From Vibrio marisflavi CECT 7928 (lineage in GTDB: Bacteria > Pseudomonadota > Gammaproteobacteria > Enterobacterales > Vibrionaceae), in assembly GCF_921294215.1 (NCBI RefSeq), contig NZ_CAKLDM010000001.1:1364001-1428000 (forward strand): DNA of 64,000 nucleotides, read 5' to 3'. The stretch's first letter is position 1. Each line of letters starts with the position of its first letter. The position numbers and the translations under genes are program-made. This document shows positions 3,819-27,444 of the stretch, in pieces. The notes beneath the pieces are model-generated. The model made no database searches, was not told where the DNA came from, and saw nothing but the letters and a program-made list of their open reading frames with translations.

Positions 3819-4439
3819 TCAACAACTTTCCCTTCTTCTTTTAAGGAAGTTCCCAACGTTTTTTCTCGATAACTCGACATCCCAACTCGTAACGATTGCC
3901 ACTACATTGACAAAAACATCCGAGTTAGAAAGCTTAATATCATCACTACATTTATCTAAAAATACAAAAGTCCATGCATTGAATATTTTTTCCACAACAT
4001 TCTGCGATTTTGCTTTGATAAAGTGTGCGTGATACCCAGACTCCAACTCCGCTTTATCGGTTAACAAGTCTAGAAAATCTACTACAGATATGCAGTCAAA
4101 ATGCTTAAAGCCTTGAGAATCAGCTTTACATGGCTTTAAGCCCAAATCATTAGTGCCTATTTGCAAAGCTCGGTCCGTTTTTGCATCATGCCTTGCAACC
4201 AATTCCCGCAGTTTTTGGGTAGATTTAGCTATATCGTCAAAAAGCTCACGCATCTCTTTAGGGTAATTTGCCAGATTTTGAGTTAATTGAATTGAACCGC
4301 TTTCATCTATTGGCAGTTGTCCAAGTCCATCCAGTTGATATTCCAGGTTTTTTATTAGGTGAGTAAACTCCTTCACCGGCACTTGAAGAAGTGAGTTTAA
4401 TGAATCTAACTGATATTGACTTAGTTTATTTTCGACCAT
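3819..4439 (-). CDS. Hypothetical protein, 206 aa
   Basis: No family recognised. The first half (residues 1-100) is a run of amphipathic helices (Leu/Gln-rich, e.g. YQLDSLNSLLQ) likely to form a helical bundle or coiled coil, and shows similarity in style to phasin-like helical proteins, though I would not assign that. The second half is mixed, ending in a basic tail (KNVGNFLKRRRESC). No signal peptide or membrane segment. It stands alone after attC-like site D; whether it is part of the cassette cluster is unclear because no attC is seen on its far side. The plus-strand frame 3790-4032 over its end is a shadow. Confidence 0.6.
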   Translation of the reverse strand: MVENKLSQYQLDSLNSLLQVPVKEFTHLIKNLEYQLDGLGQLPIDESGSIQLTQNLANYPKEMRELFDDIAKSTQKLRELVARHDAKTDRALQIGTNDLGLKPCKADSQGFKHFDCISVVDFLDLLTDKAELESGYHAHFIKAKSQNVVEKIFNAWTFVFLDKCSDDIKLSNSDVFVNVVAIVTSWDVELSRKNVGNFLKRRRESC

Positions 4440-4829
4440 ACTTTACCAATACACTTAACATTCTTATTAACAAGCTGGCTCGTTTTGTCGCCAGCCTAAC
4501 TGTCAACCAATCTATCATAACTCTTTAAAAAACAAAGCATATTAACCTTGTCTTCCATTTAACCTTCACATGAAAACGAGCTGTCAGTTCCGACAAAACA
4601 AGCCACCTTTCCTTACTCAAGCACGGTTCAATTCCAATAAGCTCTATAAATACACAGATAAATGGGGGAGATAGCAAAATAATGGCCTTTTGTATCGACT
4701 CAAATTCACCATGAGCTAATCAATCGCAAACTTAGGGCATATTTGGAGTGGACAGCAAAACTGAGTAAATAGTCTAGATTATTTATGGGAATAAACGCGT
4801 TTAAGATTGAAAAAGATATAACCAGTACT
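4440..4829. other. Intergenic, 390 bases, no gene seen
   Basis: Both neighbours are on the minus strand. The segment is AT-rich with stop codons in all frames. I see no strong hairpin, no RNA gene and no attC core here. Confidence 0.5.
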
Positions 4830-6155
4830 TTAAGCTGGAATATGCCCACTCTCAGTATTTAAGGGGAGGATAATTGTAAACTCAACTCCCTCATTCAAGT
4901 TACTCACACACTTAATTGAGCCTTTTAAAGTTTGATTAATGATATTAAAGACTAGGTTAAGCCCTAACCCACTACTCCCGTTGCATCGATTGGTCGTGAA
5001 AAATGGGTCATAAATCTTGGGTAGCGTTGCTGCATCTATCCCTTTCCCAGAATCACGGTAAGTTAGGGTAATGTGAGTGTCCTGCTCGATGACGATTATT
5101 TCTATCTTTCCTTTTTCACATTCATCAAAGCCGTGGACTAGTGAGTTTTGCAATAGATTCGTTATCACTTGGGCAAAAGAACCTGGCTCGGAAAAGATGT
5201 TTAACTCTTTATTACAGGTAAGTGTAGTGGTGATTGATTGCCCATTAATTTGCGGGCCAAAAATCATAATTGTGTCAGTTAGGACATTATGTAAATTGAA
5301 TGTTTGGTGAACTGTATTACTTTGATCAATAGCCATACGTTTGAAACTTTTAATCAGATTAGCGGCGCGATCTAAGCTAGTTGCAAGTATTCGACAGCCC
5401 GATTCCGTAGCGATGATATGTTCTTTTAGCTCCTCCAATGTTAACTTTTCACCCTCAAGCTTACTCGCAATGGTATGTATTTCATCAGCGATATGACTAG
5501 TGGCGGTAATGCTGATGCCTAAAGGGGTATTCACTTCATGGGCGATACCAGCGACAAGCCCACCTAATGAAGAGTGCTTCTCAGATTCAATTAGCTGACT
5601 TTGGGTCTCTTTTAAATGATCTAAAGCTGCTTGTAAGTCCTTAGTGGCATCATTAACTCTGTCTTTCAGTTCGTCATTTAGGCGCAGTAATGCTTCCTTT
5701 GCTAATGTTTCCTCTGTTGTCTCTCTTGTGACTCCCATAAGCTTTATGACTTCACCATTCGCGTTTAGCATCGGTATAAAATTAGAAGCAAAGCTGCGTT
5801 TATCCAGCCCCACACCGACACTGAAATCGAAATTTGGAATCGGCTCACCTTGAATGGCTTTTTGTAATAGGGCTTGAATCCAATCTTGATTATCATCGCC
5901 CACAACGCTGGTATAAGGTTTGTCGACGACTTGGTCTTCGACTTCAAGCCCCATCATATTGAGGCCTGCTCGATTCATTTTTTTTAAGCATCCATCCAAA
6001 CCAATTTCATGAATACAAACGGGCGCATAGTTCACGAGATCGTGATAAGCGTTTTTCTCATCGACTTCCGCCGAAGAGAGCTTTTCAATATGTTGATCCA
6101 AAGGGCAATACTCACCTTGTGAGCCGTTATCTGATTTAGAAGTAGAAGACGTCAT
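4830..6155 (-). CDS. PAS-domain sensor histidine kinase, orphan
   Basis: Layout: short N-terminal region with CPLDQH, a PAS domain (about residues 38-155, starting YAPVCIHEIGLDG), a coiled linker of alternating Leu/Asp/Glu (160-190), HisKA-like dimerisation helix with the H box GIAHEVNTPLGI, then HATPase_c with N box (TNLLQNSLVHGF), G1 (DSGKGID) and G2 (GSSGLGL). The H-box sequence HEVNTPLG, rather than HELRTPL, marks the PAS/HWE-unrelated group of kinases often found without a membrane segment; no TM helix is visible, so it should sense a cytoplasmic signal. No response regulator is adjacent, so its partner is unknown. Confidence 0.92.
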   Translation of the reverse strand: MTSSTSKSDNGSQGEYCPLDQHIEKLSSAEVDEKNAYHDLVNYAPVCIHEIGLDGCLKKMNRAGLNMMGLEVEDQVVDKPYTSVVGDDNQDWIQALLQKAIQGEPIPNFDFSVGVGLDKRSFASNFIPMLNANGEVIKLMGVTRETTEETLAKEALLRLNDELKDRVNDATKDLQAALDHLKETQSQLIESEKHSSLGGLVAGIAHEVNTPLGISITATSHIADEIHTIASKLEGEKLTLEELKEHIIATESGCRILATSLDRAANLIKSFKRMAIDQSNTVHQTFNLHNVLTDTIMIFGPQINGQSITTTLTCNKELNIFSEPGSFAQVITNLLQNSLVHGFDECEKGKIEIIVIEQDTHITLTYRDSGKGIDAATLPKIYDPFFTTNRCNGSSGLGLNLVFNIINQTLKGSIKCVSNLNEGVEFTIILPLNTESGHIPA

Positions 6156-16737: not shown

Positions 16738-17076
16738 TCAAACGTTAGCCGCCCTGGATTCAAACTCTACAAAACCATTTTCGATTGCCGGGAATATATC
16801 AACGATTTCAAAGTACGGCTCTGTAAAAACTTTAGTATCTCGCAATTCTTCAATTAAGTAGTAATAGTCTTGAATATTTTCTGTTTCGTATACGGCTATA
16901 TCACTGCATTTAGCGGTAAATGCTTCGGCATCGTACAGTCTAACGGAAACACTCGGATATCGAGAAAAAATCTCTTCCACTGTTTCGGAAAAATAGGTGT
17001 TTCTATCTTCTCTATCGAGAGATAACCAGTTTCTTGTTGCATTCATATGAACGAAAAACGAGTATTTACGCGCCAT
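16738..17076 (-). CDS. Darcynin-like small protein, 112 aa
   Basis: Begins YSFFVHMNATRNWLSLDRED, followed by RYPSVSVRLYDAEAF, CSDIAVYETENIQDYYYLIE and FTEPYFEIVDIFPAIENGF. This order (F.V.VN.T..WL.L, R..D.E.F....SD.....T.....Y....E.LRDT....PYFE....) is that of the darcynin family, a ferredoxin-like dimeric alpha/beta barrel-type protein without known function. Assignment is from memory of the motif layout. Cytoplasmic; isolated gene. Confidence 0.65.
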   Translation of the reverse strand: MARKYSFFVHMNATRNWLSLDREDRNTYFSETVEEIFSRYPSVSVRLYDAEAFTAKCSDIAVYETENIQDYYYLIEELRDTKVFTEPYFEIVDIFPAIENGFVEFESRAANV

Positions 17077-17704: not shown

Positions 17705-18184
17705 CTAACATTGATTCAATGTTAGTTCTTGTATGTCGACAAGATCTACTTCCCTACCTAGTATCCGCTTGTATTCAATCAAGCGATGAACAGGAATGAC
17801 AGGCACTTTAATACCCTGATAGTCTTTCTTCACAGACTCCGAAAACTTAATTTCAAGTGGATACCAAGAACCATCTTGGTATGACTGTATCTTTGTATTT
17901 TTAGATAACCCAATTTCTATCTTTTGATCTTGGTAAACCAGTTGAAAATACTCTAGATCCCAGCCATGTTCAACGTAATGAGTTAAAGGTTTGGTTATAT
18001 ATTGCTCTACATGGAACAGCACTTTTTGAGCGTTAGAGTTATGAATATAAAGGTCGATATCTGCAATTGCACGACTACCTCCATGAATAGTGGCAGCTAG
18101 CCCGCCGACGATTTGATAGTCCGTACCCTCTGAGTCCAAGATTTCTTTTAGCCACTCCAAGGCTATCTTTACTTTCTCACTCAT
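17705..18184 (-). CDS. Nucleotidyltransferase-fold protein (MNT/AbiEii-like), 159 aa
   Basis: The segment YQIVGGLAATIHGGSRAIAD followed by IDLYIHN is the nucleotidyltransferase signature: GG...A...HG, then R..D.D. The two Asp (ADIDLYI) are the metal ligands. Such small proteins transfer a nucleotide to a substrate, as in aminoglycoside adenylyltransferases, or act in toxin-antitoxin pairs with HEPN or AbiEi partners. No partner gene is adjacent. A 20-bp near-perfect inverted repeat (18198-18217) lies just upstream of its ATG and could be its operator. Confidence 0.8.
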   Translation of the reverse strand: MSEKVKIALEWLKEILDSEGTDYQIVGGLAATIHGGSRAIADIDLYIHNSNAQKVLFHVEQYITKPLTHYVEHGWDLEYFQLVYQDQKIEIGLSKNTKIQSYQDGSWYPLEIKFSESVKKDYQGIKVPVIPVHRLIEYKRILGREVDLVDIQELTLNQC

Positions 18185-18246: not shown

Positions 18247-19926
18247 TCACGCTTGCTTGGATATTTTAAAGTTCGCAACTGTTTCTTTCAGTTCATGGAC
18301 TAATTGGTTAGTTTTTTCCACTAGCTCGGCAGTGCTCTGAGAGCTGGTCAATACGCCTTCACTGGTATCACGAATTGATGTTAAGTTTTGATTTACGTCT
18401 TCTGCAGTGACTGATTGCTCTTCACTGGCAGTAGCAATTTGAGTACTCATTTCACTGATGTTAATCATTAGCTCGGTGAGAGTTTCAAACGATGCTCCCA
18501 TTTCTTTTGCCAGCACTAATCCTGTATTGGATGCATTAAAGCTGAGTTCGATTGTTTCCACAGAAGAGTCAGCGCTATTTTTAAGGTTTTCAATTAATGA
18601 GGCAATCTGGCCTGTTGACTCTTGGCTTCTTTGAGCGAGCGACCTCACTTCATCAGCAACAACGGCAAACCCGCGCCCTTGCTCGCCAGCTCTTGCGGCC
18701 TCGATGGATGCATTCAAAGCAAGCAAATTAGTTTGCTCTGCGATTTCATTGATTGTGTTGACGAAGTTAGAGATAGCTTCAGTATTGCCTTTTAGCTCAT
18801 TGATGACTTCTTTCGAGGCAGACATATTGGACACCAAGTTTTCTGCAGCACTGACATTCTTAGACACGATAGACTGGCTGCTTTCTATTTGCGATTCGGC
18901 TTGGTTTGCGGTGTCGCTGGCATTCGAGGTACTGCTCGCAACTTCCGTAATGGCGGAAGCCATTTCCATCATGGCTGCGGCGACTTGATCTGTTCGCTGG
19001 AACTGATCATCAACAACAATTGAATTTTGCTTCGACAAGTCAGCGACTTGGCTCATGGAGGTTTCAATGTGGCGAGTATTATTTAGAATTGTACTCACTG
19101 ATTGGCTAAGGTTTTTTGACATTGTCACCATCGCTTGAATCAACTCGCCTATTTCATCTTTGCCTCCAGATACAGAAAGTTGCGTGCTGGTAAAGTCACC
19201 TTGCGCCATTTTATTGGCTAGCTGCTTAGCACTAGTGAGCCTTGAGGTGATAAAGCTGCTTACTATCAAGCCGACACCTATTCCGATAAGTGCTGAAATT
19301 GAAGAGATGATAATCATCATTCTCAACGCTAATTTTTCTTCTGACTCGGTGAATAAGACGGTTTCTTCAGTCACCTTTTCTAACTCAACCAAAAAACTTT
19401 TGAGGTGTTCATTCACTCGAGTTTGTTCAGCCTCTAAGTTATCAATATCTACGCTTTCTCTATTTCCTGATGCCAGTTGTGACAAAATGGCGAAACCCTT
19501 CTGTTCATAGCTTTTGTGCTCAACAACAATGCTTTCGAGCTTATTTAACAGCACTTGCTCCTTTGCTTTCAGCTCTTCAGTAAAGGCATGGGAAATGGCA
19601 AGTTCCAGCAATTGCTTTGCTTCTACTATTTCCTTATCAACGCTTTGACTAAGTTGGTGAAACTTCTTATCAATGGCTTTGATTTCTTCTGCTGAGTTTA
19701 ACCGAAGGGCTTTCTCTATCAGAATGGCTGCTTCAAGCTGCTTGATAGTGATATCACTGACCAGTTGAACCAGCGGGATATTTTCACCTGCAATACCTTC
19801 TAGCTCGCTGCCAATGACGCTCATTTTGTAGGAGCTAAATGCAGAGGTGAGAATGAGGAGCAATAATAAAACCGATACTAAGCCTAGTATTTTTGCTTTG
19901 ATAGGGAGATCTTTAAACCATTCCAT
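18247..19926 (-). CDS. Methyl-accepting chemotaxis protein
   Basis: Layout: TM1 ([20 protein letters not shown], residues about 13-32), periplasmic four-helix-bundle sensor (33-205) of the 4HB/TarH type, TM2 ([20 protein letters not shown]), HAMP (about 225-280), and the cytoplasmic signalling coiled coil. The hairpin tip is intact: [20 protein letters not shown] followed by [20 protein letters not shown], which binds CheA/CheW. No C-terminal NWETF pentapeptide for CheR. Length 559 aa. It signals to the flagellar motor in response to an unidentified ligand. Confidence 0.95.
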
Positions 19927-20481
19927 AGTTTATGCCTCTTGACGCGAATACCTAAAACTTTAGGCAACATTTGATTTCATGACCAGTTGAGTTATATCAA
20001 CTGAAACTTATTACAAACATATTGAAAATCAATTATAAGATATTTGTTTCATATCAAAATGTTATCTAGCGTAAAGAATTTGAATGGGTTAACAACTCTA
20101 TTAACAATTGCACTCGCTCTCAGTCAAAAATCGATTCTAGAGAGTGAATGTATCAATATTTTTGTTGCATTTACTTTATGCGATCTTTATCAGGTTGCAT
20201 TTGTTTTAGGAATGAGAAAAAAGTGAATATTTCAAAATATTTCAAAATGTAACATTAAAAACACGGTTGGATTGAAAAAACACCACACACTAATTAATTG
20301 AAAATCCATTGTTTTATAAGATAATTTTCTTTTTTTGTCAGTTCGATGAATGGGTTGAAGTACAAAAATTGGCGTCATGAAAAGGTCATAAATCTTCCAC
20401 AATTCAAATTTATGCTGGCGAGCACTCATTGGCAGCTGAAATGGTTGCCATTTATTTGGAAGTAAATAGCTAGGATCTATT
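19927..20481. other. Divergent intergenic region upstream of the phosphoesterase locus
   Basis: 555 AT-rich bases between the MCP gene and the first phosphoesterase. The plus-strand frame 20044-20226 (60 codons) has no ribosome-binding site and is not called. A direct repeat ATATTTCAAA occurs twice at 20226-20245. A PhoB-box-like element is annotated separately at 20372-20389. Confidence 0.4.
20372..20389 (+). promoter_or_regulatory. PhoB-box-like direct repeat
   Basis: Two heptamers, GCGTCAT (20372-20378) and AGGTCAT (20383-20389), separated by 4 bases, giving the 11-bp period of the Pho box (consensus CTGTCAT-N4-CTGTCAT). It lies about 93 bases before the phosphoesterase start, a suitable place for activation. 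One half-site pair only, and each heptamer has one or two mismatches. Confidence 0.5.
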
Positions 20482-22035
20482 ATGACTAGGAAATTTAAGC
20501 CGACGCTCGTAGCGGCATCCCTTGCCTTTTCAATCATCTCTATGGCTGGTGGCTGCTCTTACCTACAAGCGAACTCAAACAGTGATCACGCGAAAGAGAC
20601 TAAAACTGAGCAGGCATCAGCGATACATACCCCATCTCAAGATAAAACGAAAACGCCAATAGAGCATATCGTTGTTATTTTTGATGAAAATATTTCGTTT
20701 GATCATTATTTTGGCACTTATCCTCATGCAACGAATCCAAAAGGTGAGCCGGCGTTCCATGCGAAACCAGATACGCCACCAGTAAATGGCTTAACCCCTG
20801 AGCTGCTACATCATAACCCTAATCGAGTGAATCCGTTTTTGCTTGCGCGAGATAAAGAGCCTTGCGACCAAGACCACGAATATGAAGCAGAGCAAGAAGC
20901 TTACAATGGTGGGCTTGTGAATCAATTTGTTAGCGCAACTGGTAACAAAAGCTCTAAAGAGTGCCAGCATGAAGTGATGGGGTATTACGACGGAAATACA
21001 GTGACCGCATTGTGGAATTATGCTCAGCACTTCTCTTTAAATGACAACTCTTACGGCACCATTTTTGGGCCGTCGACTCCGGGAGCGCTCAACCTAGTTG
21101 CTGGTACGACCGGTAAAGCATTTCCAACAGATGCGCCAGATATCGTAAACGGTAACCTTGTTGGCGATGTCGACCCACGTTTTGATGACTGTTCATACAA
21201 GAGCCCAGCTCAAGCCAAAGCAGGTGAGCAAGACGCAGCGAAAGATGGTGGTTTGGTTTATATCAAAGGTCAGAATATTGGCAACCTATTGAATGACAAG
21301 GGCGTGACTTGGGGTTGGTTTGAAGGTGGGTTTGACCCATCAAGCCGAACTAAATCAGGTATTGCACGTTGTGATAGCGTCAGCACAAACATATTTGGTG
21401 GGCAGAAGAAGGACTATATTCCTCATCACGAACCGTTCCAGTATTACAAATCTACATCTAACCCTCATCACCTCGCACCTAGTAGCATCGCAATGGTAGG
21501 CAAGACTGATAGAGCGAACCATCAGTACAGTTTGAAAACATTCTGGAAAGCCGCGGACAGTGGTCATTTGCCAGCTGTGAGTTTCCTTAAAGCCAAAGGT
21601 GTTGAAGATGCTCACGCTGGATACTCGAACCCACTGGATGAGCAGAAGTTCCTAGTACGTACCATTAACCGACTACAGAAGCTACCAAGCTGGAAGCATA
21701 CTGCGGTTATCATCGCTTATGATGATTCGGATGGTTACTACGACCATGTTATGCCACCGAAGAATCATTTCGCTAACGAAGAAGGCCGCGCGGGTTATGG
21801 TCCTCGCTTGCCTCTGTTGGTCATTTCTCCTTATGCCAAGCAAAACCATGTAGATCATACTCTGACTGATCAGGCGTCAATTATTCACTTTATTGAGAAG
21901 AATTGGCAGCTTGGCCACATCAAGCACTCAATGGATAAGCACTCAGGAACGTTAGAGAACATGTTTAACTTCCAGAAGCCAGATCTAGATCCGAAACTAT
22001 TCTTAAACCCTAACACTGGTGAAGTGGTTTCCTAA
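20482..22035 (+). CDS. Acid phosphatase / phospholipase C-type phosphoesterase, predicted lipoprotein
   Basis: Belongs to the phosphoesterase superfamily of Francisella AcpA and bacterial phosphatidylcholine phospholipase C. The metal and catalytic residues known from AcpA can be placed: Glu69-Asn70 (DEN in VVIFDENISFDHYFG), the Ser198 nucleophile (FGPSTPGALNL), and Asp414-Asp415 (AYDDSDGYYDH). It should cleave phosphomonoesters or phospholipid head groups. The N-terminus has a signal peptide with a lipobox-like AGGC (Cys25) followed by Ser, suggesting an outer-membrane-anchored periplasmic lipoprotein. Length 517 aa. It begins a same-strand group of five genes, but a strong terminator follows it. 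A Pho-box-like site is upstream, fitting phosphate-starvation control. Confidence 0.9.
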   Translation: MTRKFKPTLVAASLAFSIISMAGGCSYLQANSNSDHAKETKTEQASAIHTPSQDKTKTPIEHIVVIFDENISFDHYFGTYPHATNPKGEPAFHAKPDTPPVNGLTPELLHHNPNRVNPFLLARDKEPCDQDHEYEAEQEAYNGGLVNQFVSATGNKSSKECQHEVMGYYDGNTVTALWNYAQHFSLNDNSYGTIFGPSTPGALNLVAGTTGKAFPTDAPDIVNGNLVGDVDPRFDDCSYKSPAQAKAGEQDAAKDGGLVYIKGQNIGNLLNDKGVTWGWFEGGFDPSSRTKSGIARCDSVSTNIFGGQKKDYIPHHEPFQYYKSTSNPHHLAPSSIAMVGKTDRANHQYSLKTFWKAADSGHLPAVSFLKAKGVEDAHAGYSNPLDEQKFLVRTINRLQKLPSWKHTAVIIAYDDSDGYYDHVMPPKNHFANEEGRAGYGPRLPLLVISPYAKQNHVDHTLTDQASIIHFIEKNWQLGHIKHSMDKHSGTLENMFNFQKPDLDPKLFLNPNTGEVVS

Positions 22036-22042
22036 TTATTGG

Positions 22043-22072
22043 ATGCCGCAGCTGCAATGCTGCGGCATTTTT
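22043..22072 (+). terminator. Strong terminator after the first phosphoesterase
   Basis: Perfect 10-bp GC-rich arms ATGCCGCAGC (22043-22052) and GCTGCGGCAT (22059-22068) followed by TTTT. It should separate the first gene from the next four, at least partly. Confidence 0.9.
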
Positions 22073-22130
22073 CATACCCAAGCCATCTTATTGTCTGGTT
22101 GCTGACGTAGCAAAGATAGTTTGGGTATGA
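22072..22130. repeat. Inverted repeat flanking a 39-base spacer
   Basis: TCATACCCAA (22072-22081) and TTGGGTATGA (22121-22130) are perfect 10-bp arms. The arms share the ATACCCAAG-type ends of the 31-bp elements at 9875 and 26190, so this may be a larger or disrupted relative. Confidence 0.5.
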
Positions 22131-22152
22131 GCGCAATTGATGAGTCTTACAC

Positions 22153-23565
22153 ATGAGTTACTCAATACAAAAATCAAAGTATCAGTGGATGATAGAGAGA
22201 GCTTTCATACGGCTACGCAAGTTTATTCCGTTGATTCAGGTTTTGATGCTAGTTGCATTGGTAGCGCTGCTTATCGCTCCTCTATTTGGGTCATACCCGA
22301 AATTTCATTGGCAAACGCCCCTCAATAACGGCCAGTTGTTCAGTGAATGGGTTTTATGGGGATTGTGGTATCCCGGAACACTGCTCTCTGTATTGTTTGT
22401 TGGGCGTTTTTGGTGTGGTGTTTTATGCCCGTTAGGAGCGCTCAGCGAGTGGGCGAGCAAAGTGGGGGCTAAGTTCAATCCGCCAAAGTGGGTAAAGCAC
22501 CCACTTGCTCCTGCCGTGAGCTTTTTAATCGTCACTATTTGGGCGCAGACATTGGACGTCCGAGACGATTTAAGAACGGCTCTTCTGCTGTTTTCTATTA
22601 TCTTTGCCTTGGCGATAGCATGTGGCTTGTTGTTTGGTGCGAGAACAGGAGTATCGCGGAGAGTGTGGTGTCGTCATTTGTGCCCCATCGGTTCTGTATT
22701 GGGCGTTTTCTCTCGGCTTGGGGTCATGAGCTTAGAGTCTGCCAACAAAAATCAGCGCGTAGAAGGTTATCGAGATCAAGGGCTATGCCCGACAAGTATT
22801 GAGCTTCGCAGCAAGCAATCTGCACGACACTGCATTAAATGTGCCCGCTGCATCAAGCCAAACTCACGTGGTGGCTTAACGCTAGAATTGCGTCAACCCG
22901 CTATAGAAATTGAACAAATTGATAACCATGCACCGTGTGGCTCAGAGCTAGCATTTATATGGTTTGCTCCGGGGTTGGCTATATCTGGTTTTATCTGGAG
23001 CTCCAGCCCAATTTACGCGCAATTTAGACAGTTCATTGGTGAGTGGGCAATGAATCATCAATGGATGGGGGTGTTCACTCAGGGCCCTGTTTGGCTGATG
23101 AACCAAAATCCGTATATCGACCAGCACTATCTTTGGTTGGACTTCCTTTCAATTTCACTATTCATGCTGCTATTTGCAATTGTCATGGCGATCATTCTTG
23201 GTGGCCTGTCGCTAATTGGTGCAAGCATATTGAAAGCTGAGAAGCCATCTTCTCTAAGTCATCGTGTGACCATTTTGGGATACCAGTTTGCACCTTTGGC
23301 TATGCTGTGCATTTTGCTTGGGCTGGGCAGCACCTTGTTTAGCTCGCTGCATTCGTGGCTGGGGCACCATTTGGTGGTGAATATTGAGCTAGTCTTCGTG
23401 GTGATCTCACTCGCGTTCAACTTATTTATCGCCGCCCGCTGGATAAGAAAAAATCACATCAGCTGCTGGCGTCGATGGGCTAACGGATTGGTTATCACGA
23501 CAGGATGTTTTGTTCTCTCTACAGTGACACTGTGGAGCATTTTTCCAACGTTTAATTTGTTTTAA
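22153..23565 (+). CDS. Membrane polyferredoxin, FtrD/NapH-like
   Basis: A multi-pass membrane protein (at least six hydrophobic segments, e.g. FIPLIQVLMLVALVALLIAP near the N-terminus). It contains two CxxxCP motifs on membrane loops (CGVLCPLG and CRHLCPIG) and a ferredoxin-like cluster CIKCARC whose usual fourth Cys is missing at the expected place. This is the NapH/NosR/RdxA-type architecture; in iron uptake the FtrD subunit of FtrABCD has it and passes electrons from the quinol pool or cytoplasm to periplasmic partners. Here it is followed directly by two P19-type proteins (FtrA-like), which supports an FtrD-type role, but no FTR1-type permease (FtrC) or cupredoxin (FtrB) gene is present. 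Confidence 0.85.
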   Translation: MSYSIQKSKYQWMIERAFIRLRKFIPLIQVLMLVALVALLIAPLFGSYPKFHWQTPLNNGQLFSEWVLWGLWYPGTLLSVLFVGRFWCGVLCPLGALSEWASKVGAKFNPPKWVKHPLAPAVSFLIVTIWAQTLDVRDDLRTALLLFSIIFALAIACGLLFGARTGVSRRVWCRHLCPIGSVLGVFSRLGVMSLESANKNQRVEGYRDQGLCPTSIELRSKQSARHCIKCARCIKPNSRGGLTLELRQPAIEIEQIDNHAPCGSELAFIWFAPGLAISGFIWSSSPIYAQFRQFIGEWAMNHQWMGVFTQGPVWLMNQNPYIDQHYLWLDFLSISLFMLLFAIVMAIILGGLSLIGASILKAEKPSSLSHRVTILGYQFAPLAMLCILLGLGSTLFSSLHSWLGHHLVVNIELVFVVISLAFNLFIAARWIRKNHISCWRRWANGLVITTGCFVLSTVTLWSIFPTFNLF

Positions 23566-23583
23566 ATACCCTCGGAGTATTGA

Positions 23584-24081
23584 GTGAAGAATCGGTTATA
23601 TTTTCTTGTTTTTATTGCTATTTATTTATGGAGTGGGGGCGCGTTTGCACAGGTGGAGACGCTTGGTTCAAAAGACTTCGCGGGAATGCACCTTTCCAAC
23701 AGTATTCGTGCTCAGGGTAAACAGTACGTTTTGTATAGTCGCATGAACGCCAATGCGATGAATCCAAATGGGTTTATTACCAACGACTTTATTCCCTATT
23801 GCGTACTCACTTACCAAGTAAACAAAGTGGACAGTGACTGGCATACAAAGCTGCGTTCACCTATGCGTTTGACAGTAAAAGGGCCTGAGTATGGCGTTTC
23901 AAACCGACTCGATGGGCCAGGAAAATATCAATGGAAGGTCGAGTACTTGTCGCCGTATTATGGTGGGTTTTATCGTCATACCGATAAAGCGACGGGTGTT
24001 GCTCCTTGGTGGAAGCCTTTTGCTTTGAGTTACACATTTGTCGTTGCAAAAGATGGTTCTATTCAGGAGGAAAACTCATGA
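23584..24081 (+). CDS. P19/Tp34-family periplasmic protein, metal site degenerate
   Basis: Signal peptide to about residue 22 (IYLWSGGAFA). The conserved end LDGPGKY..., then GGFYRHTDKATGVAPWWKPF, identifies the P19/Tp34 (Fe2+ transport protein) family, immunoglobulin-like periplasmic dimers that bind copper and iron. Aligned by eye to the next gene, the His/Glu/His of the first metal motif are Val/Tyr/Asn, the Met is displaced, and the HYG His is Glu102; only His132 remains. GTG start with GGAG 7 bases upstream. Its stop overlaps the next start (ATGA), so the two are translationally coupled. It may be the non-metal-binding partner of a heterodimer. Confidence 0.82.
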   Translation: MKNRLYFLVFIAIYLWSGGAFAQVETLGSKDFAGMHLSNSIRAQGKQYVLYSRMNANAMNPNGFITNDFIPYCVLTYQVNKVDSDWHTKLRSPMRLTVKGPEYGVSNRLDGPGKYQWKVEYLSPYYGGFYRHTDKATGVAPWWKPFALSYTFVVAKDGSIQEENS

Positions 24082-24599
24082 AACGTTTGTTAGCTATTGG
24101 TTTTCTCTCTCTTGTCACTCACGCAGCGATGGCTATGAATGTGGTATTTGGCCCAGATATCGGCATTAACGGAATGAAAGTGGGTGCTAGCTTTATCCAA
24201 GGTGTCACCATGTCGCCGAAAATGAAAGGCATGCCAAAGCATCCAGATATTCACTTGGAGACAGATGTTCATGCTCTGCCGGGCAATCCTCAAGGTTTCC
24301 CGCCAACAGCATGGATAGCGGGGCTAAAAATACACTATATCGTTACTAAGCAAGGTAGTAGCTGGAAACGGCAAGGATATTACCTCGCGATGGTAGCACA
24401 AGGTGGTCCACACTACGGTATCAACCTCAAGCTTGATGGACCAGGCAAATACTTTGTGACCAATTACTATCAGCCGCCAACTGCAAATGGATATTTTGAG
24501 CACGATAGAGCGGGAGCCGGAGTCTATCCGTGGTGGAAACCTTTTACACGACACTATTCATTTGATTTTTTTGGAGCGGGAAAACATGGCGGTTATTAA
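24078..24599 (+). CDS. P19/Tp34-family periplasmic metal-binding protein, metal site intact
   Basis: Signal peptide ends near Ala19 (LVTHAAMA). The mature part follows Campylobacter P19 closely in layout: the motif PDIHLETDVHALPGNPQGFP (His59, Glu61, His65), YLAMVAQGGPHYG (Met105 and His112, seven apart), and GYFEHDRAGAG (His142) before WWKPF. These correspond to the copper/iron ligands of P19. P19-type proteins bind periplasmic Fe and Cu and hand iron to an FTR1-like permease or oxidise/reduce it. Overlaps the previous gene by four bases and the next by fourteen, so the set is a tight operon. Confidence 0.88.
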   Translation: MKRLLAIGFLSLVTHAAMAMNVVFGPDIGINGMKVGASFIQGVTMSPKMKGMPKHPDIHLETDVHALPGNPQGFPPTAWIAGLKIHYIVTKQGSSWKRQGYYLAMVAQGGPHYGINLKLDGPGKYFVTNYYQPPTANGYFEHDRAGAGVYPWWKPFTRHYSFDFFGAGKHGGY

Positions 24600-26040
24600 A
24601 AAGTTGGCAACGGCATTGGGTTTAATCCTTGTCTCAAACGTAAGTGTAGCCAAGCAACTTAAAGCGCCAAAGCCACATACTCCGATTAAGCACTTGGTGA
24701 TTCTAGTGCTTCAAGATCAAAGCTTTGATCGCTATTTTGGGGTTTACCCGCATGCAAAAAATGCGGCGGGTGAAAATGCTTTCCACGCCCTAAAAAACAC
24801 GCCTACGGTAGATGGGCTCACAAAAGCCTTGTTAGAGCACAACCCAAACCTAAATAATCCGTACCGAATGGCCCCACAGGAGCCCACTTGCGATAATGGT
24901 CATGGTGTTTACGCTGAAAAACGCTCTTATAATCACGGCAAAAATAACATGTTTATCTGGCGAGATTACGACATATCCAGTGGCATTAATGATGATGGCT
25001 GTTTTCCACAATCTGTCATGGGATACTATGACGGAAATTCAGTCACAGCACTGTGGAACTACGCGCAGCATTATGCCATGGCTGACCGCCTTTTCGCTTC
25101 TAACTACACCACGGAAGCTGGTGGAATGATTGATTTAATCGCAGGAACCAACAAAGGTGTTGTACCGAAAATGTCACCGGGTGTGAGCTTTCGTGACTCT
25201 CTCATTCAAGACAACCCGCCTCTTTACGATGATGCAAGTAAAGGGCGTTTTAAAGTCAGCTATACACGAAAAAATATTGGTGACCTGTTGAATCAGCATG
25301 ACGTAACGTGGGGTTATTTCGCTGGTGGCTTCGCTCCTTCCGCAAGATTATCATCAGGGAAAGCACAAGTGTCGACTCGCTCTTTGAATTCGCAAGGTTC
25401 CCTAATTGAAGATTATCAACCGATTAGCGATCCATTTCAGTATTTTAAATCGACCGCAAATCCACATCATCTAGCGCCGTCTTCTCTCGCAATGGTTGGA
25501 CACTCTGATCGAGCGCATCACCAATACGATATCAGTGAGTTTTGGAAAGCACTGAGGCATGGCAGCTTACCGTCCGTCAGCTTTGTTTCTCCAATTACGG
25601 GACAAAGTGGTCGAGTTGGGGTTTCATCACCGAAAGATGAACAGCGGTTTGTGGCAAGCACACTGAACAAAGTCATGCAATCACATCAGTGGAAGTCTAC
25701 AGCGGTAATGATCGTATGGAGCTACAACGATGGTTGGTATGATCACGTTACACCACCCAACAAACCCAAAGAAATGAATGGAATAGGCTATGGGCCTAGA
25801 CTGCCATTTTTGCTTATTTCACCTTGGGCTAAGCGCAACTACGTAGATAACTCAATGTTAGACCAAGGCTCAATACTACGCTTTATTGAACACAATTGGA
25901 GATTAGGAGAGCTAGGCAAGCATACTGCCGATCATTTCTCTCACTCTCTGCAAGGGATGTTTGATTTTAGTGGTACGCCTCATTCCACTCCGCTATTCAT
26001 TAACCCAAACACGGGTGAAGTAGAAAAGAAGGGTGCCTAA
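24586..26040 (+). CDS. Phosphoesterase-fold paralogue without catalytic residues (pseudoenzyme)
   Basis: 484 aa, exported (hydrophobic ATALGLILVSNVSVA then Lys), same fold and end (LFINPNTGEVEKK) as the first phosphoesterase, with long shared stretches such as MGYYDGN.VTALWNYAQH and NPHHLAPSS.AMVG. Yet every AcpA-type ligand differs: Glu-Asn is Gln43-Asp44 (LQDQSFD), the Ser nucleophile column is Glu177 (NYTTEAGG), and Asp-Asp is Ser379-Tyr380 (WSYNDGWYDH). It should not catalyse the AcpA reaction. ATG 24586 overlaps the end of the P19 gene; upstream in-frame starts lie inside that gene. No Cys lipobox, so probably soluble periplasmic. Confidence 0.88.
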   Translation: MAVIKKLATALGLILVSNVSVAKQLKAPKPHTPIKHLVILVLQDQSFDRYFGVYPHAKNAAGENAFHALKNTPTVDGLTKALLEHNPNLNNPYRMAPQEPTCDNGHGVYAEKRSYNHGKNNMFIWRDYDISSGINDDGCFPQSVMGYYDGNSVTALWNYAQHYAMADRLFASNYTTEAGGMIDLIAGTNKGVVPKMSPGVSFRDSLIQDNPPLYDDASKGRFKVSYTRKNIGDLLNQHDVTWGYFAGGFAPSARLSSGKAQVSTRSLNSQGSLIEDYQPISDPFQYFKSTANPHHLAPSSLAMVGHSDRAHHQYDISEFWKALRHGSLPSVSFVSPITGQSGRVGVSSPKDEQRFVASTLNKVMQSHQWKSTAVMIVWSYNDGWYDHVTPPNKPKEMNGIGYGPRLPFLLISPWAKRNYVDNSMLDQGSILRFIEHNWRLGELGKHTADHFSHSLQGMFDFSGTPHSTPLFINPNTGEVEKKGA

Positions 26041-26189
26041 TATAAAGGCTATCAGTGCGAGCATCTGCCTCGTTATTTGGGGCGGTTAATAAAACTTTTG
26101 CTAAGCCACTCTGGGACGTGTTGACCTAATCGAACCATTTGATATTTATTTCCTTATATCGCAAGGCCACGCGTCTTAGTCTCTACCTT

Positions 26190-26220
26190 ATACCCAAGTG
26201 ACCCCAAGATGCTTGGGTAT
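26190..26220. repeat. 31-bp palindromic intergenic element, copy 2
   Basis: Starts ATACCCAAG and ends CTTGGGTAT (perfect 9-bp arms), inner part TGACCCCAAGATG. It lies between convergent genes and may act as a terminator. Compare 9875-9905. Elements with these ends are common between Vibrio genes. Confidence 0.65.
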
Positions 26221-26223
26221 AGA

Positions 26224-27444
26224 CTATTTGGAAACGACTACCGAATTAGTGGATTCAAACTGTTTCACCCCACCAAGTGTTTTAATCAAAACAGCAGCCA
26301 TTACGACACTGATTAGCAAATAGAATGCGCCTACCGTTGATTGACTGGAGACCCACCATTTAACAATGTATCCACCAGCGATACCTGCTACCCCCATTTG
26401 TACAGCGCCCGTCAACGCAGAGACCGCGCCAGCTTGACGTTTGTGAGGTGCAAGCAACATGCTAATCGAAAGAGGGAATGATAAACCTTGTGCGACGGTT
26501 AGAAGAGTGAATGCGCCTATCAAATTAACCAGTGACATAGGTGTCAGAATTAGCCATACCCCTGAGAAAGCGATTAGGGTGATAGAGAATGATAGAAGCA
26601 ACCTAGTGGAGAAGTGGCGGCTCACAACATTCAACATCGTGCTTCCGAACATAAGACCAGCTGAAGGAATGATCATGTACATACCATACTGTTCGACAGA
26701 AATACCTAACTGTTTTTGCAGTAAAAATGGAAACACCGACACTGACACTACCGAAGCTAAATACGTGAGCCAATTATAGCTAGCACTCGAAATCACCTGT
26801 GGGTCTCGACATAATCGCCAATAGTTAGAAATTACTGCTCCAGAGTCGAAGCGTTTTTTCGCGTAAGGAAGCGTTTCTGGTAACAGTATTGAGCCTAACA
26901 AAAACATGACCAGTAAATAGATGAGAACGAAGCTGAACACCGACTGCCAGCCGATATGAAATGCTATCCACCCGCCTAATGCTGGAGAGAGTACCGGAAC
27001 AATGGACGCGGTCATTGCTAGGTAAGTCATTGATCGTGTTAAATGAGGCCCTTCATAACTATCACTTAAAACGCTGCGGCCTAACACCGATGCACTACCA
27101 GCCCCCAACCCTTGTAGTATGCGTCCAACCACCAGCCAGTGAAAATTATCGACAAATAGCACACACAATACTGTTCCTAGTAGGTAAACACCTTGACCAA
27201 GCATAAATACTGGCTTTCTACCAATCGCATCTGATAATGGCCCATAAAATAGCTGTGAGCCCCCAAAACAGACCAAAAATACCGTAACAAGTAGCTGTGT
27301 ATCTGACTGTGTTATCGATAATGTATCGCTAATCAAAGGTAATGAAGGTAAGTAAATACTCACACCAACCTGCCCCGTTGCGATAATCATCATCGCAAGG
27401 AGTAAAGGGGTTTTATTAAAACTATTTTGCTGTTCTCTTTTCAT
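26224..27444 (-). CDS. Bcr/CflA-family multidrug exporter (MFS, 12 TM)
   Basis: Twelve hydrophobic segments. The DHA1 signatures are visible: QVGVSIYLPSLPLISDTL in TM1, the motif-A loop GPLSDAIGRKPVF after TM2, GRILQGLGAGSASVLGRSVL in TM4 (with the Arg) and SVVPVLSPALGGWI-like motif C in TM5 (SIVPVLSPALGGWIAF). Likely exports drugs or small metabolites by proton antiport across the inner membrane. Divergent from a LysR gene 87 bases away, which probably controls it. Confidence 0.92.
   Translation of the reverse strand: MKREQQNSFNKTPLLLAMMIIATGQVGVSIYLPSLPLISDTLSITQSDTQLLVTVFLVCFGGSQLFYGPLSDAIGRKPVFMLGQGVYLLGTVLCVLFVDNFHWLVVGRILQGLGAGSASVLGRSVLSDSYEGPHLTRSMTYLAMTASIVPVLSPALGGWIAFHIGWQSVFSFVLIYLLVMFLLGSILLPETLPYAKKRFDSGAVISNYWRLCRDPQVISSASYNWLTYLASVVSVSVFPFLLQKQLGISVEQYGMYMIIPSAGLMFGSTMLNVVSRHFSTRLLLSFSITLIAFSGVWLILTPMSLVNLIGAFTLLTVAQGLSFPLSISMLLAPHKRQAGAVSALTGAVQMGVAGIAGGYIVKWWVSSQSTVGAFYLLISVVMAAVLIKTLGGVKQFESTNSVVVSK

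Follow-up and report, generated by a model that had tools for sequence, protein, structure and literature searches.

The plus strand of a 64-kb stretch of the Vibrio marisflavi CECT 7928 genome (contig NZ_CAKLDM010000001.1; hereafter the window, on which all coordinates are based) is filled from 20482 to 26040 by five genes, named here g1 to g5, which combine phosphoesterase-type proteins with parts of an Ftr-type iron system. The first gene, g1 (20482..22035), encodes an AcpA-like acid phosphatase of the phospholipase C (PLC) superfamily of phosphoesterases (PF04185, 3e-84) with a putative lipobox, AGGC, picked out by eye. It is followed by g2 (22153..23565), encoding a multi-spanning membrane polyferredoxin homologous to FtrD (PF12801 Fer4_5, 1.5e-11), and by two P19 (FtrA-type) genes: g3 (23584..24081, GTG start; PF10634, 7.5e-22), a degenerate paralogue with a putative signal peptide (by eye), and g4 (24078..24599; PF10634, 4.8e-38). 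The last gene, g5 (24586..26040), encodes an apparent pseudo-phosphoesterase of the AcpA/PLC superfamily (PF04185, 5e-65), also with a putative signal peptide by eye. Gaps of 117 bp and 18 bp separate g1 from g2 and g2 from g3, and overlaps of 4 bp (ATGA) and 14 bp join g3 to g4 and g4 to g5. The listed open reading frame (ORF) starts of g5 (24487) and g4 (24006) fall inside the preceding gene, and 24586 and 24078 were adopted instead. A sequence-only reading of this DNA had described five same-strand genes, the last four overlapping or almost touching, that unite AcpA/PLC phosphoesterases with the P19 and polyferredoxin parts of Ftr; the layout and, through the Pfam matches, the family assignments were borne out. 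Its start at 20372 is not a gene start; a Pho-box-like repeat (20372-20389) begins at this position.

The same reading had remarked on the missing partners of an Ftr system. The FTR1 family (PF03239) has no match across the whole source genome (4.78 Mb, 100% complete), against matches in 4 of 14 control genomes, so this part of the claim holds genome-wide. For the cupredoxin it stands at the level of the locus and the window: with small purpose-built hidden Markov models (HMMs), neither an FTR1- nor an FtrB-type frame turned up in the 64 kb, and no cupredoxin search was made in the rest of the genome. Both HMMs were applied to, among others, the loci used in building them; the FtrB model comes from three of its eight clear positives. 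The only P19 and PF04185 matches of the source genome are the genes of this locus.

The order phosphoesterase, polyferredoxin, P19, P19, phosphoesterase on one strand recurs in all seven cassette loci read (the window, L005, L006, L007, L008, L081 and L082), which represent at least six species of Vibrio, Marinomonas and a Celerinatantimonas-like genus; L007 and L008 are near copies. This shared order argues that the association of the five genes is not due to chance. The stretches read around these seven loci held no FTR1- or FtrB-type gene, a result opposite to the picture of P19 and polyferredoxin genes always accompanied by FtrC and FtrB, with phosphoesterases nearby by accident. Genes flanking the cassette differ among the window, V. 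sinus and Marinomonas, and were judged by eye to be common to both Celerinatantimonas-like loci. In a one-genome-per-species collection the polyferredoxin was matched in V. sinus, Marinomonas flavescens and two M. spartinae strains, and a Syntrophomonas metagenome-assembled genome (L009) gave a further match that was short and weak. Among 394 surveyed genomes from the order were two further cassettes (G814 and G835), both in the same Celerinatantimonas-like genus, and protein matches suggest that Dongshaea marina and Celerinatantimonas yamalensis carry the same cassette. The cassette is rare: any P19 was present in 25 of 296 sampled Vibrionaceae, with more than one only in the source genome and V. 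sinus (G230); 3 of 48 Marinomonas genomes have the polyferredoxin; and none of 17 other polyferredoxin carriers in a class survey of 369 genomes has a cassette.

The relatives of g2 point to its ancestry. Eight cysteines (C88, C92, C173, C177, C212, C227, C230 and C233) are invariant across 16 aligned relatives. We read 22 non-cassette loci with a g2 relative (L056-L072, L074, L083-L086). Twenty of them have P19 within the stretch, the two misses (L071 and L083) being near contig ends; FTR1 is present in 14, and FTR1 and P19 together in 13. An FtrB-type cupredoxin is clear in eight and weak in a ninth (L070), and where these loci were checked with Pfam, cupredoxin was confirmed in 3 of 3 cases and FTR1 in 2 of 2. 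With such neighbours g2 is an FtrD homologue. A PF04185-like protein was found in none of the 22. A midpoint-rooted tree sets the nine cassette polyferredoxins apart from 23 others as a single group (100/100; stem length 1.19), next to which (90/83) stands a type adjoining FTR1 that includes a second V. sinus locus. This topology, subject to the midpoint root, fits a single origin of the cassette from an Ftr-type locus, then spread between bacteria. Within the group, the Marinomonas and Celerinatantimonas-like rows cluster (100/97) separately from Vibrio. Marinomonas is assigned to a different order, and transfer of the cassette between orders is therefore likely.

Given this ancestry, the locus could be a conventional iron- or copper-handling system whose permease is encoded elsewhere, with the phosphoesterases as unrelated passengers or merely co-regulated. 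Most non-cassette relatives are indeed Ftr-like, and every cassette genome except the source has FTR1 elsewhere (one copy in V. sinus and in G835, two in G814 and in each of the three Marinomonas genomes). We nevertheless consider this explanation rather doubtful. The source genome has no FTR1 at all, V. sinus retains a separate FTR1-polyferredoxin-P19 locus (L074) in addition to its cassette, two phosphoesterases flank the module in all seven loci, and the g4 and g5 genes of the window overlap; moreover, a passenger would hardly be retained as a conserved dead paralogue. FeoB was found in all six cassette genomes tested, of the seven, so a ferrous route exists without FTR1.

Upstream of g1 lies a candidate PhoB-like promoter region (20372..20416, plus strand) with half-sites and a -10-like hexamer. 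The half-sites GCGTCAT-N4-AGGTCAT at 20372-20389 start 110 bp ahead of the g1 ATG, and the best combined reading pairs AGGTCAT...CTTCCAC (20383-20400) with the -10-like TATGCT (20411-20416). The Pho promoter model used includes a 10-bp spacing, in agreement with E. coli pho promoters. Scored for two half-sites out of 14 (in brackets, the number of 200 shuffles scoring as well), the region reached 12 (1) in V. sinus, 12 (3) and 12 (1) in M. spartinae and 11 (5) in M. flavescens. With the -10 at 10 bp, five loci had a combined score of 15 of 20, and the window and L082 scored 14; the corresponding p-values against dinucleotide shuffles (0.003-0.024; window 0.024) are optimistic, as the spacing had been noticed on these sequences before scoring. 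A score of at least 15 was found in 7 of 108 upstream stretches of these loci, namely 5 of 7 for g1 against 2 of 101 others (Fisher 4e-6, which assumes that all seven g1 stretches are among the 108; the controls include spurious ORFs). Genome-wide, the half-site motif exceeded its reversed control in four genomes (32/17, 27/13, 40/22 and 39/26), by about twofold at most. These sites are suggestive of a PhoB-like promoter upstream of g1, clearer in V. sinus and Marinomonas than in the window, and so lend some support to the sequence-only reading's idea of a role in phosphate limitation, weakly so for the window itself. In the g1/g2 gap, a hairpin followed by a T run (22036..22072, plus strand, -21.8 kcal/mol) would suit a higher output of g1 than of g2-g5. 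The hairpin is present in 7 of 7 cassette loci, the T run in the window and three Marinomonas loci. Ahead of g2, no Pho-like promoter was found (best scores 10-12 of 20).

The two phosphoesterases were compared at nine positions: E43, N44, H106, S175, H287, H288, H350, D386 and D387, numbered after AcpA (2d1g) and counted on the g1 alignment. We take E43, N44, H106, H287, H288, H350 and D386 to be active-site positions of AcpA; S175 and D387 are named for this enzyme in PMC2673038. All nine are intact in g1 in 7 of 7 loci. The Marinomonas g1 copies are without a lipobox. In g5, D386, D387, H287 and H288 are kept in none of 17 distinct proteins (one partial), and E43 is kept in none of 16, being replaced by Q in all of them; the remnants are N44 (1/16), S175 (3/17) and H350 (12/17). 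A separate g5 comparison of 16 rows held two exact repeats, and 17 is the distinct count. Among the best 120 of 7971 matches to the g5 query, all 107 outside relatives (P0102-P0208) keep E43, N44, S175, D386 and D387, and H287 and H288 are kept by 103 and 102 of them. The g5 protein still matches AcpA over residues 28-480 (1.9e-121), and the g5 proteins form one group on a long stem in the phosphoesterase tree, apart from g1, which argues against a recent copy of g1. From its residues, g5 is a pseudo-phosphoesterase in which metal and most catalytic positions are replaced, and it is apparently inactive. As a side observation, L082 carries a third phosphoesterase downstream beside g5 (3972-5588, minus strand), degenerate with EGSAHLGTD at the nine positions and placed on a long branch with g1.

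The state of g5 bears directly on the earlier idea that P19 and the polyferredoxin supply metal to both phosphoesterases: with D386 and D387 gone from every g5, it fails for that protein, and the loss of most P19 metal ligands from g3 also tells against it. A narrower version, in which g1 would receive a metal loaded or reduced by P19 and the polyferredoxin, draws on the operon-like layout, the AcpA metal ligands kept in g1 and the PhoB-like site upstream of it. We rate it as distinctly improbable, given that g5 has no metal ligands left, that the superfamily is large (those 7971 matches) and that none of its members was seen beside the 22 non-cassette loci. The need for a chaperone is also not obvious, since EDTA (ethylenediaminetetraacetic acid) reportedly lowers AcpA activity by about 25% and leaves plant NPC4 unaffected (PMC9837106). 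The same source gives the NPC4 metal ligands as E23, N24, T158, D299 and E300. Because NPC4 is reported not to need its metal, g5 may conceivably act as a metal-free phosphatase, by analogy; the equivalents of the acids said to activate the nucleophile are gone from it as well. The PhoB-like site and family names for g1 that include phosphocholine-specific PLC, below cut-off, would also suit lipid renovation, with g1 as a phospholipase C on membrane lipids under phosphate starvation, g5 as a head-group binder and the P19 module handling released metals. This we hold to be very unlikely: g1 matches AcpA at 1.3e-175 but solved PLCs at no better than 1.2e-26, and authentic phospholipids are not cleaved by AcpA according to PMC2673038.

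The P19 pair shows a second case of decay. Residues checked were H42, E44, M88, H95 and H132, plus D46, D92 and D134. Of these, E44, M88 and the H132 equivalent (FtrA H151) are positions of deposited mutants, and H42 and H95 are presumably metal-site positions of P19. Twenty-five other P19s (20 loci and 5 database proteins) all retain H42, E44, M88, H95 and H132. In g3, H42, E44 and D46 are lost and H95 is replaced by E in 12 of 12 rows, with H132 kept in all 12; in the window, M88 is replaced by R in an ungapped alignment and the H132 loop is retained. The g3 protein is thus without the canonical P19 metal site, most of the ligands being gone. These 12 rows are six loci plus P0002, P0004, P0005, P0007, P0010 and P0011, with L006 and P0007 as near copies; L008, P0001, P0003, P0006, P0008 and P0009 (same or near species) and P0013 (partial) were omitted. 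In g3, the positions H42 and D46 were assigned with MAFFT; a phmmer alignment with FtrA, which covers E44 onward, gives the same result for E44, M88 (now R), H95 (now E) and H132. In g4, H42, E44, D46, M88 and H95 are kept in 6 of 6 rows (L008 omitted), and the loop residues D134 and H132 are lost in 6 and 4 of them. The window g4 has an altered H132 loop and D92 replaced by G; together with the V. sinus protein it keeps all five canonical residues. Among solved structures g4 is matched by FetP (3.6e-33) and FtrA-P19 (7e-32). How g3 and g4 are placed relative to each other in the P19 tree is unsure, since both sit on long stems. The degeneration of the two copies, as read from the alignments, is largely complementary, which suggests that g3 and g4 form a heterodimer.

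At the compared positions, g5 and g3 are thus shown to be conserved degenerate paralogues, and g1 and g4 to keep most or all of their predicted functional residues. With each family present as one canonical and one degenerate copy, and with g5 still matching AcpA over residues 28-480, the degenerate proteins could act on their canonical partners (g5 on g1, g3 on g4) as inactive subunits or inhibitors, such that phosphatase activity tracks the periplasmic metal or redox state. The long stem of g5 apart from g1, which shows no recent copying, speaks against such regulation by pseudoenzymes, and we regard it as unlikely.

Several described systems share parts of the cassette. As in FtrABCD and FtrAPBCD (ferrous iron; Bordetella, Brucella, Rubrivivax), a P19 (FtrA) adjoins an FtrD-type polyferredoxin; unlike them, the cassette locus has neither an FTR1 permease (FtrC) nor a cupredoxin (FtrB), its P19 is doubled with largely complementary degeneration, and two phosphoesterases are added. 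With FetMP and P19-cFtr1 (E. coli F11, Yersinia, Campylobacter) it shares a periplasmic P19, g4, with the same metal residues except D92, but it has no FetM/FTR1. It also has a polyferredoxin where C. jejuni has DUF2318, ABC and thioredoxin genes (PMC6083913). Within the AcpA/PLC superfamily, g1 conforms at all nine residues and g5 departs from it by the loss of its metal and most catalytic residues. The g2 protein resembles NapH/NosR-type membrane ferredoxins in its CX3CP motifs, its Fer4_5 match and weak NapH, NosR and CcoG matches; these weak matches all fall below curated cut-offs. In the literature searched (open PMC papers), we met no association of a PF04185 phosphoesterase with P19 and polyferredoxin and recognised no description of this gene set.

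No single functional reading commands more than a third of our confidence. The one we put forward, tentatively, is a phosphate-starvation cassette of Ftr origin, which would cleave phosphate esters, handle the bound iron by redox chemistry and pass the iron to Feo. Under phosphate limitation PhoB would switch on g1, which would cleave phosphate esters in the periplasm. The g5 protein, a phosphatase fold without catalytic residues, would bind an ester or a ferric-ester complex uncut. A g3-g4 heterodimer would bring complementary half-sites together into one Cu/Fe centre, and this centre would exchange electrons with g2; most simply, iron freed from its phosphate ligand would be reduced. Phosphate and Fe2+ would both be released, the latter entering through FeoB. 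The proposal that FetP is an Fe2+ binder and Fe3+ reductase (PMC7285068) counts in favour of this scheme.

Several points weigh against the phosphate-starvation cassette. The described Ftr step is oxidation of Fe2+, by FtrB or Cu-FtrA (PMC11966278). Half-site scores are weak in the window (10 of 14; 45/200 shuffles), L082 (10; 49/200) and L081 (9; 155/200), and genome-wide the motif in V. sinus does not rise above its reversed control (26 against 29). Given the terminator-like hairpin and the lack of a Pho-like site before g2, only g1 may be under the promoter. Fur regulation was tried and rejected, the best Fur box upstream of g1 being matched by 51-197 of 200 shuffles in 7 of 7 loci. In the heterodimer H132 would come from the partner subunit, as is presumed for P19 dimers; both Vibrio g4 proteins retain a histidine at H132. 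The M88 to R replacement in g3 is alignment-dependent: one inserted residue (phmmer against FetP) puts the neighbouring M94 there. Finally, permease-free P19/polyferredoxin pairs exist also without phosphoesterases, which makes the lack of a permease by itself less novel. FTR1 is absent near four such pairs (L056, L057, L084 and L085), and the genomes that carry them (G417, G421, G799 and G745) are without any FTR1 match; the same holds for G608 and G766. The four pairs are perhaps a second permease-free use of P19 and polyferredoxin.

In sediments and seawater, iron and phosphate occur bound together, and we know of no dedicated system that couples their uptake. A more far-reaching proposal is that the cassette is such a system: under PhoB control, a dead phosphatase of the g5 type would bind ferric organophosphates and a live one would cut them, and an obligate P19 heterodimer with a split Cu/Fe site, fed by the polyferredoxin, would bring the iron into a redox state that lets it leave. 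On this proposal an iron-uptake module would have been rebuilt for phosphate acquisition. We think this improbable as a whole. The conserved pairing of a phosphatase with Ftr redox parts makes iron-phosphate coupling testable, the complementary decay of the two P19 copies tests how P19 proteins share a metal site, and the permease-free state raises the question of what P19 and polyferredoxin do alone.

Some further features were noted in the Ftr-type loci. Next to the permease-free pairs lie an OprB-like protein below cut-off (L056), a thioredoxin-like protein (L084) and an NHL-repeat protein (L085). In L074 (11185-11700, minus strand) and L062 (6755-7219, plus strand; G588), both FTR1-polyferredoxin-P19 loci, a small protein immediately ahead of FTR1 has a common conserved stretch, AYWDVYD..EIKYRSY (by eye), and is possibly a further subunit; the V. 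sinus one has no Pfam match above cut-off. One database protein (P0078) fuses FTR1 and Fer4_5 polyferredoxin domains in a single 706-aa chain, which supports joint working of the two. Between P19 and FtrB in two FtrAPBCD-like loci lie an OprB-porin match (L061, 8995-10422, minus strand) and its look-alike (L063, 2838-4280, minus strand), which may be the 'P' component of FtrAPBCD. For g2 itself, no solved relative was found by sequence at E 1; its AlphaFold model (pLDDT, the predicted local distance difference test, 78.9) gave a best Foldseek E of 0.95 with no PDB match below 0.001, which has no bearing on fold novelty.

Phage origin was rejected: of g2-g5, which were scanned, g2 has one weak PHROG match of unknown function and g3-g5 have none. 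Plasmid carriage was likewise rejected, no plasmid record covering 80% of g2 (best 43% identity over 71%). A check for shared diazotrophy with PF00142 returned weak matches, and all 14 controls match too. No Rfam family reached its gathering score in 19900-26300. The locus is flanked upstream by a chemoreceptor and a helicase and downstream by a major facilitator superfamily (MFS) transporter, a LysR regulator and a GGDEF/EAL protein. Elsewhere in the window, the minus strand encodes a 159-aa protein (17705-18184) that appears small-nucleotidyltransferase-like by eye, with no Pfam match at 0.001, and a Darcynin-domain protein of unknown function (16738-17076; PF17074, 7.5e-17).

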